Shown one piece after another: positions 12,621-18,305 of a DNA stretch of 41,312 nt (position 1 is its first letter; each line of letters opens with the position of its first letter). This DNA comes from Streptosporangiales bacterium. GTDB lineage: Bacteria; Actinomycetota; Actinomycetes; Streptosporangiales; WHST01. The notes under the pieces are model-generated. The model saw only the letters and a list, made by a program, of their open reading frames with translations. It did no database searches and had not been told where the DNA came from. The DNA lies in assembly GCA_009379955.1 (NCBI GenBank), contig WHST01000052.1, positions 1 through 41,312 on the forward strand, given 5' to 3'. The position numbers and the translations under genes are program-made.

Positions 12621-13637
12621 ATGCGCCCCGTTCTGAAACCTGCCCTGCGCCGCATCTGGCGCGGACCCGCCACCGTGCAGATCGGCCTCGACCCCTCCCG
12701 AGCCGTCGTGCTGTCCGGCTGCGACGACGACGTCGTCGAACTCCTCGACGTCCTCGACGGCACCCGCGAGCCCCGCGCCGGCAGTGCCGGTGCCGACCAC
12801 GGCGGCCTGCTCACCCTGCTGTCGGGTGCCGGTCTGCTCGACGACGCGGTGGCCAGCACTGCGCCGCTCCCCGGTCTGAGCCGCACCCATCGCGAACGCC
12901 TCGCTCCCGACCTCGCCGCAATGTCGCTGCTGTCCGGCGCGGCCGACGGCGGGCTCGGCCTGCTCCGGCGCCGCCGGGGATCCGCGGTCGCCGTCCACGG
13001 CGCGGGCCGGGTCGGCACGACCGTGGCGACACTGCTCGCCGCCGCCGGTGTCGGCGCGATCCACGTGGTCGACGGCGGCATCTGCCAGCCAGGCGACTGC
13101 GCGCCGGGGGCCCTGCCGATGGCCGAGCTCGGCCGGCGACGCGACGAGGTCGTCGGCGACCTCCTCGCGTCCTACGCGGCCGAGGCGGGCCCGCCGGCAG
13201 GCCAGCTGGTCGCGGTGGTCCTGACCGGCGCGGCCGCGACGGATCCACGGGTCCGCGACGGCCTCGCCCGCGAGCGGGTGCCACACCTCGTCGCGGCGGT
13301 CCGCGAGACCACCGGCCTGGTCGGCGCGTTCGTCCTCCCCGGCCGGTCGGCGTGCCTGCGCTGCCTCGACCTGCACCGCACCGACCGCGATCCCGGCTGG
13401 CCGGTGGTCGCGGCGCAGCTCGCCGCGGCGACCCCGACCACGATCGACGCCTGCGACACCGTCCTCGCCACCGCTGTCGCCTGCTGGGCCGCGCACGAGG
13501 TGCTCGCGCTCATCGACGAGTCGCGACGCCCCCTCACGGTCAACGGCTCGCTGGAACTGTCGATGAACGATTGGCGCTGGCGCCGTCGCACCTGGTCCCC
13601 TCATCCGGACTGCGCATGCACCGAGCCCGCGGTCTGA
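12621..13637 (+). CDS. Orphan E1/ThiF-like protein (TOMM leader-peptide-binding type)
   Basis: This 338-residue protein has a nucleotide-binding fold of the ThiF/MoeB/HesA superfamily: VAVHGAGRVGTTVATLLAAA at about 124-143, then HVVDGGICQPGD. Cys pairs are CLRC near 247-250 and CAC at the C-terminus (DCACTEP), which probably bind zinc. The N-terminal part (RAVVLSGCDDDVVELLDVLD) resembles the winged domain found in cyclodehydratase partners annotated as TOMM precursor leader-peptide-binding proteins. No YcaO, dehydrogenase or precursor peptide lies next to it. It ends 24 bases before the ABC1 kinase gene, suggesting cotranscription. Family call is by motif. Reaction and substrate are unknown. 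Confidence 0.75.
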   Translation: MRPVLKPALRRIWRGPATVQIGLDPSRAVVLSGCDDDVVELLDVLDGTREPRAGSAGADHGGLLTLLSGAGLLDDAVASTAPLPGLSRTHRERLAPDLAAMSLLSGAADGGLGLLRRRRGSAVAVHGAGRVGTTVATLLAAAGVGAIHVVDGGICQPGDCAPGALPMAELGRRRDEVVGDLLASYAAEAGPPAGQLVAVVLTGAAATDPRVRDGLARERVPHLVAAVRETTGLVGAFVLPGRSACLRCLDLHRTDRDPGWPVVAAQLAAATPTTIDACDTVLATAVACWAAHEVLALIDESRRPLTVNGSLELSMNDWRWRRRTWSPHPDCACTEPAV

Positions 13638-13661: not shown

Positions 13662-14978
13662 GTGAACGATCTCCCGCGCTGGGCGCTGACCCGCACTGCC
13701 AAGCTGGCCTCGGTGCCGCTCGGCTACGCCGGTCGCACCGCGCTCGGCCTCGGCCGGCGCATCGGCGGCCAGTCCGCCGACGCCGTCGCGGCGGAGGTCC
13801 AGCGGCGCACCGCCGAGCAGCTGTTCAAGGTGCTCGGCCAGCTCAAGGGCGGGGCCATGAAATTCGGCCAGGCACTCTCGGTGCTCGAGGCCGCGATCCC
13901 GCCGGAGCTCGCCGGCCCGTACCGCGCGACGCTGACCCGGCTGCAGGAGGCGGCGCCGCCGATGCCCACGGCGACGATCCACGGGGTTCTCGCCGAGCAC
14001 CTCGGCGACGGCTGGCGCGAGCTGTTCACCGAGTTCGACGACAGACCCGCCGCCGCGGCGTCGATCGGCCAGGTCCACCGGGCCGTGTGGTCCGACGGCC
14101 GCGAGGTGGCCGTCAAGGTGCAGTACCCCGGTGCCGGTCCCGCGCTGCTCAGCGACCTCGCCCAGCTCAGCCGCATGGGCCGGCTGTTCAGCTCGATCAT
14201 CCCCGGCATCGAGGTCCGCCCGCTGATCGACGAGCTGCGCGAGCGGGTGGCCGAGGAGCTCGACTACGCCCGCGAGGCCGAGGCCCAGCGCCGGTTCGCC
14301 GAGACGTACGCCACCGACCCCGACATCGTCATCCCCGACGTCGTCGACCAGCGCGGCCACGTCCTCGTGAGCAGCTGGCTCGAGGGCACGCCGCTGTCCA
14401 AGGTCATCGCCTCGGGCAGCCAGGACGACCGCAACCGGGCGGGCCTGCTCCTCGCCCGGCTGCTGTTCTCCTGCCCGGGCCGGGCACGCATGCTGCATGC
14501 TGACCCGCACCCGGGCAACTTCCGGCTGCTCCCCGACGGCCGGCTCGGCGTCCTCGACTTCGGTCTCGTCGCACGCCTCCCCGACGGCCTGCCGGCGTCG
14601 ATCGGCCACGTGCTGCGGCTCGGGCTCGAGGGCGACGCCGCCAGCGTCGCGGCCGGGCTGCGCGACGAGGGCTTCGTCCGCAGCGACCAGGAGGTCGACG
14701 CCGAGGAGCTGCTCGCCTACCTCCAGCCGTTCCTCGACCCGATCAGGCAGGAGCGGTTCCGCTTCACCCGCGAGTGGATGCGCGAGCAGATGAGGCGCGT
14801 CGGCGACCCGCGGTCGGCGACCGCCGAGCTCAGCAGGCGGCTCAATCTGCCGCCCTCCTACCTGCTCGTGCACCGGGTGTGGATCGGCGGCATCGGCGTG
14901 CTCTGCCAGCTCGAGGCCGAGGGCCCGTTCCGGGCCGAGCTCGAGACCTGGGTGCCGGGCTTCGCCCCCGCCGTCTGA
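13662..14978 (+). CDS. ABC1/AarF/UbiB-family atypical kinase
   Basis: This 438-residue protein (Rv3197-like) has the UbiB-family hallmarks in order. The KxGQ motif is in [14 protein letters not shown], and the Ala-rich nucleotide loop is [13 protein letters not shown], followed by [10 protein letters not shown] with the ATP-binding Lys. [12 protein letters not shown] is the catalytic loop and [12 protein letters not shown] the DFG motif. Family members bind and hydrolyse ATP and in other organisms support isoprenoid-quinone metabolism. Bacterial targets are unclear. The start is GTG at 13662, seven bases after a TGGAGG. A bidirectional terminator follows. Confidence 0.92.
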
Positions 14979-15062: not shown

Positions 15063-15227
15063 TCAGTACACCCTGCGCCTGGCCACGGCCAGACGCGCCT
15101 GGGCCTTACGGACCCTGTTCTCCGCCCGGCGAAGCGCTGCGACGCGTCCCGCGTCGCGCTCACGCTCGGCTTCCGCCAGGCGGCTGCGCATTCGTTCTCG
15201 CGCGTGTTCTTGGGGTAGCAAATTCAT
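15063..15227 (-). CDS. Small basic coiled-coil protein downstream of whiB7 (54 aa)
   Basis: An AAGGAG seven bases before the ATG at 15227 supports this 54-residue gene. The product is almost wholly charged helix (RMRSRLAEAERERDAGRVAA and onward) with heptad-like spacing, strongly basic, and ends in RRRVY. It lies 73 bases downstream of whiB7 on the same strand, with the strong terminator just beyond, so it may be cotranscribed and co-induced. No family was recognised. A ribosome- or nucleic-acid-associated role is only a guess from composition and context. Confidence 0.65.
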   Translation of the reverse strand: MNLLPQEHARERMRSRLAEAERERDAGRVAALRRAENRVRKAQARLAVARRRVY

Positions 15228-15300: not shown

Positions 15301-15585
15301 TCAGGCAGCCACCTCGGACTTGCGCGGACGTCCTCGCGGCCGCTTGCGCGGTACGACGACGCCCTGCACGAAGAGCTCTCCACCCCAGACACCCCACGGC
15401 TCGCGCCGCTCGAGTGCCGAGGCAAGGCACTGCGTACGTACCGGACAGTCCCGGCACAGCGCCTTCGCGAACTCCACATCGGCCGGCGACTCGGCGAAGA
15501 AGAGCTCGGGGTCTTGCGCACGACACGGCAGGTCGAGGTCCTCGGCGAAGGGCGCCTCGAACAGCTCGAACACGGTCGCGGACAT
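15301..15585 (-). CDS. whiB7: WhiB7/WblC-type iron-sulfur transcription factor
   Basis: This 94-residue WhiB-like protein has four cluster-binding cysteines (C21, C44, C47, C53, the C...CxxCx5C pattern), the turn GVWGGE at 64-69, and a C-terminal AT-hook RGRPRK at 84-89, which marks the WhiB7 subgroup. WhiB7 binds the housekeeping sigma factor and activates promoters with an AT-rich element upstream of -35, inducing resistance to ribosome-targeting drugs. A GGAGGTGG ribosome-binding site precedes the ATG. An intrinsic terminator and a leader ORF lie upstream, the arrangement expected for attenuation control. It is downstream of uvrD2 in the same direction, as in mycobacteria and Streptomyces. 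Confidence 0.95.
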   Translation of the reverse strand: MSATVFELFEAPFAEDLDLPCRAQDPELFFAESPADVEFAKALCRDCPVRTQCLASALERREPWGVWGGELFVQGVVVPRKRPRGRPRKSEVAA

Positions 15586-15652
15586 CGGGTTGCCACCTCC
15601 TCGTGACGGTGTTGACAGTGCTGGGTCTTCGGGTTCGTTCCTTCGGTTGGGG

Positions 15653-15695
15653 CAAACAAAAAGGCCGCGGATCCCGGAGTCGGGTTCCGCGGCCT
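15653..15695 (-). terminator. Intrinsic terminator (attenuator) in the whiB7 leader
   Basis: On the minus strand a 10-bp perfect stem (AGGCCGCGGA / TCCGCGGCCT) with an inner CCC/GGG extension and six-base loop is followed by TTTTTGTTT. It is the only textbook U-tract terminator seen in the window. It stands 67 bases before the whiB7 start and 23 bases after the leader ORF stop. Such a position would block whiB7 transcription unless antitermination occurs. Confidence 0.85.
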
Positions 15696-15718
15696 GGAGA
15701 GGCGGCCGGTCTTTTCGT

Positions 15719-15955
15719 CTAGACCGGATGCTGACTCCAGGGACGGAGGCCCGAAACCGCGCCATCCTTGACGGCGGCCGGGGTGTTCTCGACGGACGGG
15801 TCGATGAAGCTGACCGCGGACACACCGGTCCCCTCGAGCTTCATCTGGACGGGCGCGACGAACGCGCCGGGACCGAACGTGTACCGCTCACGCGAGACGA
15901 GACCGCCACCGAGGCAGGTCGGACGCGTGACGCCGAGAGTCGTCATCGTGATCAC
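15719..15955 (-). CDS. 78-codon leader ORF upstream of whiB7
   Basis: A GGAGG eight bases before a GTG at 15955 opens a 78-residue frame ending 23 bases before the terminator stem. An ATG at 15946 is a less well-spaced alternative. The peptide includes RPTCLGGGLVSRERYTFGPG and ends SGLRPWSQHPV. It matches no family I know. It sits in the roughly 420-base leader between the promoter-like sequence at 16010-16048 and whiB7, so the likeliest role is a regulatory uORF: ribosome stalling or slow translation near its 3' end would alter folding of the adjacent terminator. A stand-alone small protein is an alternative. Confidence 0.6.
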   Translation of the reverse strand: MITMTTLGVTRPTCLGGGLVSRERYTFGPGAFVAPVQMKLEGTGVSAVSFIDPSVENTPAAVKDGAVSGLRPWSQHPV

Positions 15956-16009
15956 GGGACCCACCTCCACTCGCTGCTCGCGGATGCGGCATCGATGGCC
16001 GCACACCAG

Positions 16010-16048
16010 AGCGTATGGGGTCAGGGGGGAGGGGGCAACTCAATTACC
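16010..16048 (-). promoter_or_regulatory. Candidate whiB7 promoter with AT-rich upstream element
   Basis: On the minus strand, TTGCCC (16033-16038) and TACGCT (16010-16015) are 17 bases apart, as -35 and -10. TAATTG-type AT-rich sequence lies directly upstream (16041-16048). This is where WhiB7-SigA complexes bind in known targets, so autoregulation is plausible. Confidence 0.5.
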
Positions 16049-16085
16049 GAACATTTCATCGTCGTAGTCCGGACGGTGCGTTCGG

Positions 16086-18176
16086 TCAGTCCGCGGAGGT
16101 GACGCCGGGCTCCTCACCGCGCACCAGGGCGAGGACGGCCGGGCCGTACAGGTCAACCTTGCGGGTGCCGACTCCGGCGACCGCGGACAGCTCCTTGTGC
16201 GTGCTCGGGCGCTGCTCGGCGATCGCCGTGAGCGTGGCGTCGGTGAAGACGACGAAGGCCGGGACGTGTTGGTCGCCCGCGGCAGACCTGCGCCATTCGA
16301 CGAGTCGCGCGAACAGGTCGCCGTCGACGTCGCCGGGACAGGTGAGGCAGTGCCCGAGCTTGCGCTCGACGGCGCCGGAAAGCTTGCGCCCGCACACGCC
16401 GCACGGTGTCGGGCCGCTCTTGGGGGTGACGGCACGGCGCGCGCCCGCCGGCTCACGGGCCGCCCCCACGCTCGACATCAGTCCGGTGAGGAAGCGGGTC
16501 GGCTCCCTGTTGGCCCGTCCACCCGGCTGCCGCGCGCGCGACCAGGACAACAGCAGCCGCTGCCGCGCCCTGGTGACCCCGACGTAGAGCAGCCTGCGCT
16601 CCTCCTCGACCTGCTCGGGCGTCTCGGCGTAGACGATCGGCATCGTGCCGTCGGTCAGGCCGACCAGGAAGACGGCGTCCCACTCCAGGCCCTTCGCCGA
16701 GTGGAGGCTGGCGAGCGTCACGCCGTCGGGAGTGGGGGCGTGCTGGACAGCCGACCGCTCGTCGAGCTCGGCGACGAGGGTGCCGAGCGACGCGTCGGAG
16801 TCGGCGGCCGCGAGGTCGGCGGACAGGCGGACGAGCGCCGCGAGCGACTCCCACCGCTCGCGTGCCGCTCCGCCTCCGGTGGGTGCCTGCCGGCGGTACC
16901 CGGACGCGCCGAGGACGTCGGCGACCCGGTCGGCCAGGCTCCGGTCGGGGTCGTCGTCGGACCGCGCCGCCGCCCGGAGCAGGACACTCGCCTCGCGCAC
17001 CTCGGGACGGTCGAAGAAGCGCTCGGCGCCGCGGACGACGTACGGCACGTCGACCTCGGCGAAGGCCTGCTCGAACGCCTCGGACTGGGCGTTGATGCGG
17101 AACAGCACGCCGATCTCGGCGGGCGGGGTGCCCGCCTCGACGAGGTCGCGGGCGCGGGCGGCGACGGCCATGGCCTCGGCCTGCTCGTCGTCGTACGCCG
17201 CGATCTCCGGCTCGGGTCCCGTCTCGCGCTGGGCGACGAGGGTGAGGTGGTGGGCGGGGTTGCGGTCGCGCGCGCGGTCGATGACGGCGTTGGCGAGCCG
17301 GACGACCTCGGGGGTCGACCGGTAGTCGCGTTCGAGCCGGATCAGCCGGGTGCCGGGGTGCTCGTCGGCGAAGTTCAGGAGGTACGAGGGGGTCGCGCCG
17401 GTGAACGAGTAGATGGTCTGGTTGGGATCGCCGACGACGCAGAGATCGTGCCGGTCGCCGAGCCAGGCGTCGAGCAGCAGCTTCTGCAGCGGGTTGACAT
17501 CCTGGAACTCGTCGACGACGAAGTGGCGGTACTGCCGGTGCACCTCCGCGGCGACGTCGGTGTGCTCGACGAGCATGCCCGCGGTGAGCTCGAGCACGGA
17601 CTCGAAGTCGAGCATGTTGCGCTGCTCGCGGATGTCCTCGTACGTCGCGTACACGCGCGCGACGTCGTCCGAGCTCACCGGCGGACGCCGGCCGGTGCGC
17701 TTGGCCTCGCGGACGTAGCGGTCGGGCCGGATCTGGCCGGCCTTCGCCCACTCCAGCTCTCCGGTGACGTCGCGGAGCTCGGCGCGTCCGAGGGTGAGGC
17801 CGCACCGGCGCGCGGCGTCGAGCACGAACCTGACCTTGCTCTCGACGATCTGCGGCGGCGGGCCGCCCACCACGCGCGGCCAGAAGAACCGCAGCTGGCG
17901 CAGCGCCGCCGAGTGGAACGTGCGGGCCTGCACGGACGGCACGCCGAGCGCGCGCAACCGGCCGCGCATCTCCCCCGCCGCCCGGGTCGTGAACGTGACC
18001 GCGAGCAGCTGACCCGCGGGGACGGTGCCGCGGTGTACCGCGTAGGCGATGCGGTGCGTGATGGCACGGGTCTTGCCCGTGCCCGCGCCGGCGAGCACGC
18101 AGACGGGGCCCTCGACGGCCTCGGCCACCGCGCGCTGCTCGGGATCGAGCCCCTGCAACACCCGCTCGGCCACCAT
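16086..18176 (-). CDS. uvrD2: UvrD2 superfamily 1 DNA helicase with HRDC domain
   Basis: This is an ATP-dependent 3'-5' DNA helicase of the actinobacterial UvrD2 type (696 residues from the chosen ATG). Walker A AGAGTGKT is at 29-36. Motif II is VVDEFQDVNPLQ and motif III GDPNQTIYSFTGA. Motifs V/VI are LASLHSAKGLEWD and YVGVTRARQRL. A tetracysteine zinc module (CGVCGRKL...HCLTCPGD) follows, then an HRDC domain with the signature ELSAVAGVGTRKVDLYG. The GAGG nine bases upstream favours the ATG at 18176. In-frame starts at 18185 and 18200 are possible. It is divergent from the mycoredoxin gene. It differs from UvrD1 by the Cys/HRDC tail. Confidence 0.94.
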   Translation of the reverse strand: MVAERVLQGLDPEQRAVAEAVEGPVCVLAGAGTGKTRAITHRIAYAVHRGTVPAGQLLAVTFTTRAAGEMRGRLRALGVPSVQARTFHSAALRQLRFFWPRVVGGPPPQIVESKVRFVLDAARRCGLTLGRAELRDVTGELEWAKAGQIRPDRYVREAKRTGRRPPVSSDDVARVYATYEDIREQRNMLDFESVLELTAGMLVEHTDVAAEVHRQYRHFVVDEFQDVNPLQKLLLDAWLGDRHDLCVVGDPNQTIYSFTGATPSYLLNFADEHPGTRLIRLERDYRSTPEVVRLANAVIDRARDRNPAHHLTLVAQRETGPEPEIAAYDDEQAEAMAVAARARDLVEAGTPPAEIGVLFRINAQSEAFEQAFAEVDVPYVVRGAERFFDRPEVREASVLLRAAARSDDDPDRSLADRVADVLGASGYRRQAPTGGGAARERWESLAALVRLSADLAAADSDASLGTLVAELDERSAVQHAPTPDGVTLASLHSAKGLEWDAVFLVGLTDGTMPIVYAETPEQVEEERRLLYVGVTRARQRLLLSWSRARQPGGRANREPTRFLTGLMSSVGAAREPAGARRAVTPKSGPTPCGVCGRKLSGAVERKLGHCLTCPGDVDGDLFARLVEWRRSAAGDQHVPAFVVFTDATLTAIAEQRPSTHKELSAVAGVGTRKVDLYGPAVLALVRGEEPGVTSAD

Positions 18177-18305
18177 GTCCGCCATCCTCGCAAAGGCCAC
18201 GGCCGCCCGTCGCCGCCACCCACAACCCCGGTTCTGTCGTCCCCGATCCGGCGGACGGCAGCCGCTACGGGGTGTAGCTGGTACTGGGGGCGCCCGGCCC
18301 TCGTG

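Follow-up and report, generated by a model that had tools for sequence, protein, structure and literature searches.

The whiB7 leader described here is very probably a transcription attenuator controlled by an upstream open reading frame (uORF). Within the 41,312-nt stretch of DNA that we analyzed (the window), all of its parts lie on the minus strand in the order promoter, uORF, 23-nt spacer, terminator, and whiB7. An earlier note on this DNA had proposed that terminator folding is governed by translation of the ORF; in support of this, we found a covarying antiterminator overlapping the end of the uORF as well as the 5' arm of the terminator. With distinctly less assurance, we lean toward a broader reading in which the leader is an uncatalogued, class-wide structured RNA, the body of its uORF serves as a sequence-free gauge, and the peptide end GPxPW(R/S)xPV is the 5' half of the antiterminator written as codons.

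The positions given earlier for the promoter, the leader ORF with its Shine-Dalgarno sequence, the terminator, and whiB7 all proved correct when the sequence was read again, as did the 23 bases between the stop of the leader ORF and the terminator stem, which we measured as 23 nt. The promoter (16010..16038) has a -35 element TTGCCC at 16038-16033, a 17-nt spacer, and a -10 element TACGCT at 16015-16010. A WhiB7-like box, GTAATT (16042..16047), recognized from sequence only, lies 3 nt upstream of the -35 element and agrees with GAAAWY at 5 of 6 positions; the full string from 16047 to 16010 on the minus strand is GTAATT-N3-TTGCCC-N17-TACGCT. Spacing places the transcription start near 16003-16000, and with the start placed in this way the 5' leader would be about 45 to 48 nt. 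The Shine-Dalgarno sequence of the uORF, GGAGG at 15964..15968, is kept in two congeners and precedes a uORF of 78 codons (15719..15955), which starts with GTG at 15955, ends in TAG, and has an end that is also antiterminator RNA. Having a Shine-Dalgarno sequence and, by comparison, a kept frame, the uORF is putatively translated.

The downstream gene (15301..15585), which encodes 94 aa from an ATG at 15585 behind AGGAGG at 15601-15596, is by its sequence certainly whiB7. Its product matches Pfam Whib (2.7e-18) and AT_hook and is 90-93% identical to WhiB7 in two congeners. All 249 genomes of the order contain a WhiB match at E <= 0.001, with a best match of 2.5e-33 or better in 247 of them; the weak best matches in the other two (G197 and G235) are probably other WhiB proteins. 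The window's family is represented by three genomes, each of which carries one strong WhiB7 homologue, with further WhiB proteins at E 1e-10 or weaker. Leaders were compared in a set of 79, made up of nine named records and 70 of the 249 order genomes, namely, the 30 best-scoring (window included) and 40 picked for spread over genera. Four leaders (L014, L022, L035, and L036) have no Shine-Dalgarno-preceded uORF by our selection rule and are absent from all counts given over 75 leaders.

Of these 75 leaders, 72 have the promoter together with a WhiB7-like box scoring 5 or more out of 6, as opposed to 0.4% of mononucleotide-shuffled regions. The consensus GAAAWY and its spacing to the -35 element were taken from the available text of PMC7157823, and a promoter with such a box fits autoregulation of whiB7. 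Sequence comparison of the promoter with its box, and of the open frame described below, lifts the leader finding above chance. Downstream of the uORF, the terminator stem-loop (15662..15695) has arms AGGCCGCGGA (15695-15686) and UCCGCGGCCU (15671-15662) followed by UUUUGUUUG, with the U-tract UUUUGUUU read from the sequence at 15654..15661. The uORF and whiB7 are separated by a stem with a U-tract, a Rho-independent terminator of the kind expected in whiB7/wblC attenuators. It folds at -29.8 kcal/mol (z -5.65; none of 200 shuffles was equally stable), and 36 of the 41 columns in its zone (88%) are identical across three congeners. A generic scanner reported neither the promoter nor the terminator in 15560-16100, which in our reading reflects its strict consensus rules, the -35 element being too weak and the internal mismatch of the stem breaking the stem-loop rule.

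The predicted antiterminator consists of three helices, the 5' strands of which are the last ~9 codons of the uORF and the 3' strands of which reach into the 5' arm of the terminator. Helix 1 pairs UCCG (15744..15747) with CGGA at 15689-15686 in the terminator arm, as suggested by folds. Helix 2 pairs CCUGGAG (15735..15741) with CUCCAGG (15693..15699), which overlaps the first three bases of the terminator 5' arm, and is indicated by folds, covariation, and strand swapping. Helix 3 pairs CCGGUCU (15721..15727), which includes the first base of the stop codon, with AGACCGG (15706..15712), and is indicated by RNAalifold, covariation, and strand swapping. The stop codon sits at the loop of helix 3 in the window fold, and the arm at 15695-15686 is common to both structures. 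In silico, the antiterminator excludes the terminator and involves the end of the uORF, although the window folds allow the terminator to form alongside helix 3 and part of helix 2. Taken alone, the antiterminator stretch of the window is only moderately more stable than its shuffles (z -2.37, with 3 of 200 as good). One shape prevails among the single-sequence folds, which cover 76 of the 79 leaders (without L081-L083).

Covariation was assessed in a sequence-only MAFFT alignment (A1) of 72 leaders, 70 of them distinct, from which seven leaders (L003, L004, and L006-L010) were left out as too divergent. RNAalifold on A1 predicted helix 3 alone, each of its 6 predicted pairs having changed on both sides; helices 1 and 2 were derived from the single-sequence folds and then tested as named pairs. 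Over the 70 distinct rows, the 19 antiterminator pairs are formed in 84.9% of cells, and in 12 of the 19 both sides have changed. Not one of 500 shuffles attained any of five covariation measures, and slid partners paired in at most 51.9%; these nulls ignore kinship, so the shuffle controls overstate significance and related sequences inflate all covariation figures. Helix 3, paired in 93.3% of cells, carries most of the both-side changes, and helix 2 reaches 76.7%, one of its pairs being open in 43 of 70 rows. Helix 1 has both-side changes in two rows only, because its 3' strand is nearly fixed by the terminator. A1 also puts the window's helix 1 two bases out of register, and the covariance model R1 scores 2 of its 5 pairs as unpaired. 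An alignment-free strand swap across the 75 leaders gave -12.60 kcal/mol for matched and -10.85 for swapped strands of helix 2, and -10.89 and -8.35, respectively, for helix 3 (0 of 1000 permutations in each case).

R1 matches the whole element in the window at 15686..15758 with 53.0 bits. This is the single match at E <= 1 in the 6.6-Mb genome of the window, where 150 of 7952 first-look candidates were scored. Across the class, scanned under strict filters with 26 first-look candidates scored per genome, 70 of 197 genomes match at E <= 0.01, of which 16 belong to the order and 54 do not. Each of the 70 carries the element on the strand that encodes WhiB7, at a distance of 87-289 nt upstream of the coding segment, and the remaining 4 of the 74 matches are on the opposite strand of the same element. 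Reverse-strand matches to R1, as in L108, L109, L105, and L124, arise because the structure of the element is nearly palindromic. Thirty of the 74 matches were fetched as loci, the others being checked by position alone, and WhiB7 is encoded downstream in all 30. The 16 fetched loci from outside the order all have a Shine-Dalgarno-preceded uORF of 59-147 codons with its stop inside the element, and in 12 of them the uORF ends in WS(P/H)PV. None of these 16 was used in building the model, although L122 closely resembles two Streptomyces leaders that were.

The other 127 of the 197 class genomes gave no R1 match at E <= 0.01. With whiB7 present at E <= 1e-16 in 169 class genomes, 99 of these have the gene without a match, and either a different or diverged leader or losses at the first look and filters could account for them; elements that R1 missed, or that lie away from whiB7, are possible. 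The seven divergent leaders omitted from A1, which come from mycobacteria, Lentzea, Umezawaea, and Nocardia, gave no match at E up to 10, and predicted folds of the mycobacterial leaders suggest UCCGUG/CACGGA plus a hairpin around the stop. Rfam 15 contained no family for the whiB7 leader at gathering score; its only match in the window was a tRNA elsewhere, and the eight matches to 15560-16100 at E <= 5 were all below threshold and seemingly unrelated.

The stepwise energies of the growing RNA indicate how the two structures would compete. Until the 3' arm of the terminator is almost complete, the optimal fold is the antiterminator: with the RNA ending at 15668, it has -59.3 kcal/mol against -56.0 for the terminator, and with the end at 15665, the values are -60.3 and -65.0. 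In the finished free RNA the terminator has -70.3 kcal/mol and the antiterminator -67.0, a difference of 3.3, and because the terminator is thus slightly favored at equilibrium, read-through must be kinetic. Blocking the footprint of a ribosome at the stop (from 18 nt upstream to 12 nt downstream of the first stop-codon base) makes the terminator, without the antiterminator, the best structure.

What follows on the kinetics, translation, and drug response of the leader is our inference. RNA polymerase would copy the leader with a ribosome trailing behind it, and under normal translation that ribosome would arrive at the stop codon, inside the innermost antiterminator hairpin. Its footprint there would melt helix 3 and part of helix 2, freeing the terminator arm, and transcription would end. 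A ribosome that stalled or lagged in about the first 64 of the 78 codons, or that never started, would instead let the antiterminator fold first; the folded antiterminator would hold the terminator arm and polymerase would read into whiB7, the product of which would then boost its own promoter. The limit follows from the position of UCCG, since it starts 26 nt before the stop codon and a ribosome held in roughly the first 64 codons would leave the antiterminator free, if its footprint extends ~15 nt ahead of the P site.

The uORF itself was conserved as a frame more clearly than as a peptide. A uORF preceded by a Shine-Dalgarno sequence was found in 75 of the 79 leaders, with a stop 15-32 nt before the terminator stem, stops having been sought only within ~48 nt of it. 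Its length ranges from 59 to 174 codons with a median of 100, so that the 78 codons of the window, which had been regarded as unusually long for a leader peptide, are not unusual among these leaders. We dropped uORF length alone as evidence in the window, because the frame also remains open in 2207 of 5000 dinucleotide shuffles and length by itself is consequently uninformative. Across the leader set, the median open stretch is 131 codons in this frame and 28 and 45 codons in the two alternatives; the contrast is somewhat inflated by the rule, which took the longest Shine-Dalgarno-preceded frame ending near the terminator. Random placement of the observed differences gave a probability of ~4e-5 for the frame to stay open without selection in all 12 pairs of relatives (the 11 pairs used below plus L012/L013 of the window's genus), conditional on leaders in which the rule had found such a frame.

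Within the kept frame, the pooled pN/pS of the uORF body was 0.93 (303 nonsynonymous and 116 synonymous differences) compared with 0.10 for whiB7 in the same 11 disjoint pairs of close relatives, a crude measure for short high-GC frames. These are 11 of 15 pairs, as L047/L060 (dN/dS 0.41) and three pairs of the window's genus (1.06-2.93) were dropped as poorly aligned. Single pairs vary from 0.28 to 1.7, and weak amino acid constraint on the body is possible in some lineages. Within the window's genus, the body is also more alike (48% identity) than the zones flanking it (33-42%), which speaks somewhat against a wholly unconstrained body. In several same-family uORFs among L014-L083, we also observed a shared W-x-x-A-C-like N-terminal stretch, absent in the window's genus, which could be residual constraint near the uORF start. 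The pooled composition of the 75 bodies is close to that expected from the bases for Ala (15.5% versus 14.3%) and Trp (1.2% versus 1.0%), above expectation for Gln (4.0% versus 2.0%), and below it for Pro (6.3% versus 9.1%) and His (1.7% versus 3.1%); the only residue run in the window's uORF, by eye, is GGG. The earlier note had left to an alignment across relatives the question of whether codons, the peptide, or RNA is conserved, and the answer is an open frame plus the 3' RNA structure. At the level of sequence, translation through the uORF body thus seems to be selected and its residues hardly so. Because the body evolves without clear amino acid constraint, it is most likely a sequence-independent gauge of elongation and not a specific arrest peptide, and a gauge of this kind would fit induction by many unrelated drugs.

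The end of the uORF could be read differently. Its last 13 codons are its best-conserved part among the three congeners, at 64% identity compared with 48% in the body and 33-42% in other zones. Of the 75 leaders, 47 have a Trp among their final 10 codons, and so, close to the end, do 15 of the 16 loci outside the order (all except L106). Such conservation might be expected if the uORF were an arrest peptide of the erm type, in which residues stall the drug-bound ribosome and GPxPW(R/S)xPV is the arrest sequence, an explanation we consider improbable. The Trp is absent in 28 of the 75 leaders. Six of these are divergent leaders that the model does not include, and several of the others keep helix 2 by matching changes: CCCGG/CCGGG in L029, L031, and L032, CCACGG/CCGUGG in one group, and CCUUGAG/CUCAAGG in L061. 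Helix 2 likewise becomes CCUCGAG/CUCGAGG in L106; it pairs poorly in L057, L081, and the mycobacterial leaders. UCCG, present in 54 of the 75 leaders and absent in 21, is kept in differing codon phases and so encodes different residues, starting at the third codon base in 43, the second in 5, and the first in 6 of the 54; of the 16 outside loci, 7 have it starting at the second base, 2 have it in another phase, and 7 lack it. Moreover, a ribosome stalled in this end stretch would block the antiterminator instead of favoring it, and the body shows no clear constraint. The conserved nascent-peptide sequence expected of an erm-type leader was not seen, the end motif following RNA pairing over residues. 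GPxPW(R/S)xPV was dropped as a conserved peptide, since pairing is often kept despite residue change and the phase of UCCG varies. Because helix 2 is often compensated without Trp and the codon phase of UCCG differs, the motif is best read, from the aligned sequences, as RNA that happens to be translated.

The same data bear on whether the uORF is a functional small protein, with the terminator merely separating two genes. The good Shine-Dalgarno sequence, the 78 codons, and the kept frame would all suit such a protein, a possibility the earlier note had raised. Purifying selection on the amino acid sequence would then be expected, whereas the body shows no clear sign of it by pN/pS, and a match to the peptide was found at E <= 0.001 in only 3 of the 249 order genomes, all of the window's genus including the window itself, with 50% identity in the two congeners. 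The peptide matched nothing in Pfam at E <= 1 or in NCBIfam at E <= 0.001, lengths vary widely among leaders, and a small protein leaves the covarying antiterminator unexplained; we regard this explanation as very unlikely. A functional protein and a specific arrest peptide share one difficulty, which is that the body lacks clear constraint although its frame is open. We would give equally little credence to a terminator that just ends transcription of the upstream helicase gene, with whiB7 having its own start right before the ATG. That gene shares the strand of whiB7, and 390 nt separate the end of its frame, at 16086, from the terminator stem, but the promoter with a WhiB7 box lies upstream of the uORF in nearly every leader and an antiterminator would be pointless. 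A strict scan found no promoter between the terminator and whiB7, which weighs little against such a start since the scan misses the main promoter too. Attenuation controlled by the uORF remains the explanation that we prefer.

Several neighboring genes were recorded alongside the leader. Directly upstream, window positions 16086-18200 (minus strand) encode a UvrD-type helicase with a C-terminal HRDC domain. Convergent with whiB7, positions 13662-14978 (plus strand) encode an ABC1/UbiB-like kinase most similar to the macrolide-binding ATPase MABP-1 (NCBIfam, 472.7 bits, below the cut-off of 800). The local order is thus helicase, whiB7, and MABP-1-like gene, which we take to be that of Rv3198c-Rv3197A-Rv3197 in M. 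tuberculosis. Right after whiB7 lies a small basic ORF of 54 codons (15063-15227, minus strand) with AAGGAG upstream and, beyond it, a G+C-rich hairpin near 15039-15009. By tblastn, this ORF has relatives in both congeners, and in L117, L122, L100, and L101 weak relatives (E 7e-4 to 2e-3) follow whiB7; it is possibly a second gene of the whiB7 transcript. Positions 12621-13637 (plus strand) encode a ThiF-like protein that weakly matches TOMM leader-peptide-binding proteins.

Attenuators of this kind are already known, and the present leader joins them. In the available text of three reports on whiB7/wblC (PMC11550727, PMC13393426, and PMC9618640), translation of the uORF leads to termination and stalling leads to an antiterminator and read-through, and a uORF with a terminator in the mycobacterial whiB7 leader is described in PMC4128351. 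As far as these texts extend, our leader resembles Streptomyces wblC and mycobacterial whiB7 in the gene controlled, the WhiB7-responsive promoter, the uORF, the Rho-independent terminator, and the predicted logic; the literature examined mentions neither a uORF body free of constraint nor a covariance model that spans the class. No RNA family for the whiB7 leader was described in the titles and abstract openings searched. What is new, within the literature examined, is limited to the absence of clear amino acid constraint, the association with whiB7 in 70 of 70 matched genomes, and the identity of the peptide end with the antiterminator. The length of the uORF has probably been noted already. 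Lee, Lee, and Roe reportedly described uORF-mediated attenuation of whiB7/wblC in 2022, with an abstract said to speak of an unusually long uORF, and their paper may reportedly already contain the antiterminator and remarks on uORF length.

Comparison with other attenuators places the uORF body apart. In trp/ilv-type amino acid attenuators such as mycobacterial ilvB1 (available text of PMC13236596), the position of the ribosome likewise picks the antiterminator or the terminator, and completed translation leads to the terminator; unlike in that type, no residue dominates the pooled uORF bodies here, as judged by composition only. In leaders of ARE-ABCF/erm type, too, drugs that target the ribosome work by way of a uORF and a conditional terminator, a likeness that here is drawn by sequence alone. 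Among them, the are5sc and tiaA leaders have very short frames (MLV and MVGDDDISG) with stalling at the start codon, according to the available text of PMC12421871, whereas the present frame is long and of free sequence. The leader frames of usual amino acid attenuators are several times shorter than the whiB7 uORF.

In actinobacteria, intrinsic resistance to many drugs that target the ribosome is under the control of WhiB7/WblC. R1 provides a handle to find and compare such switches in unannotated genomes, and it suggests a reason, RNA pairing, for the short conserved end of the peptide. If the uORF body is mere translatable length, so that only an open frame of sufficient length counts, then the response of one leader to unrelated drugs and to amino acid shortage would be simple to test. 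Control of whiB7 would in that case be a physical measure of how far translation lags behind transcription, independent of the chemistry of the nascent peptide.
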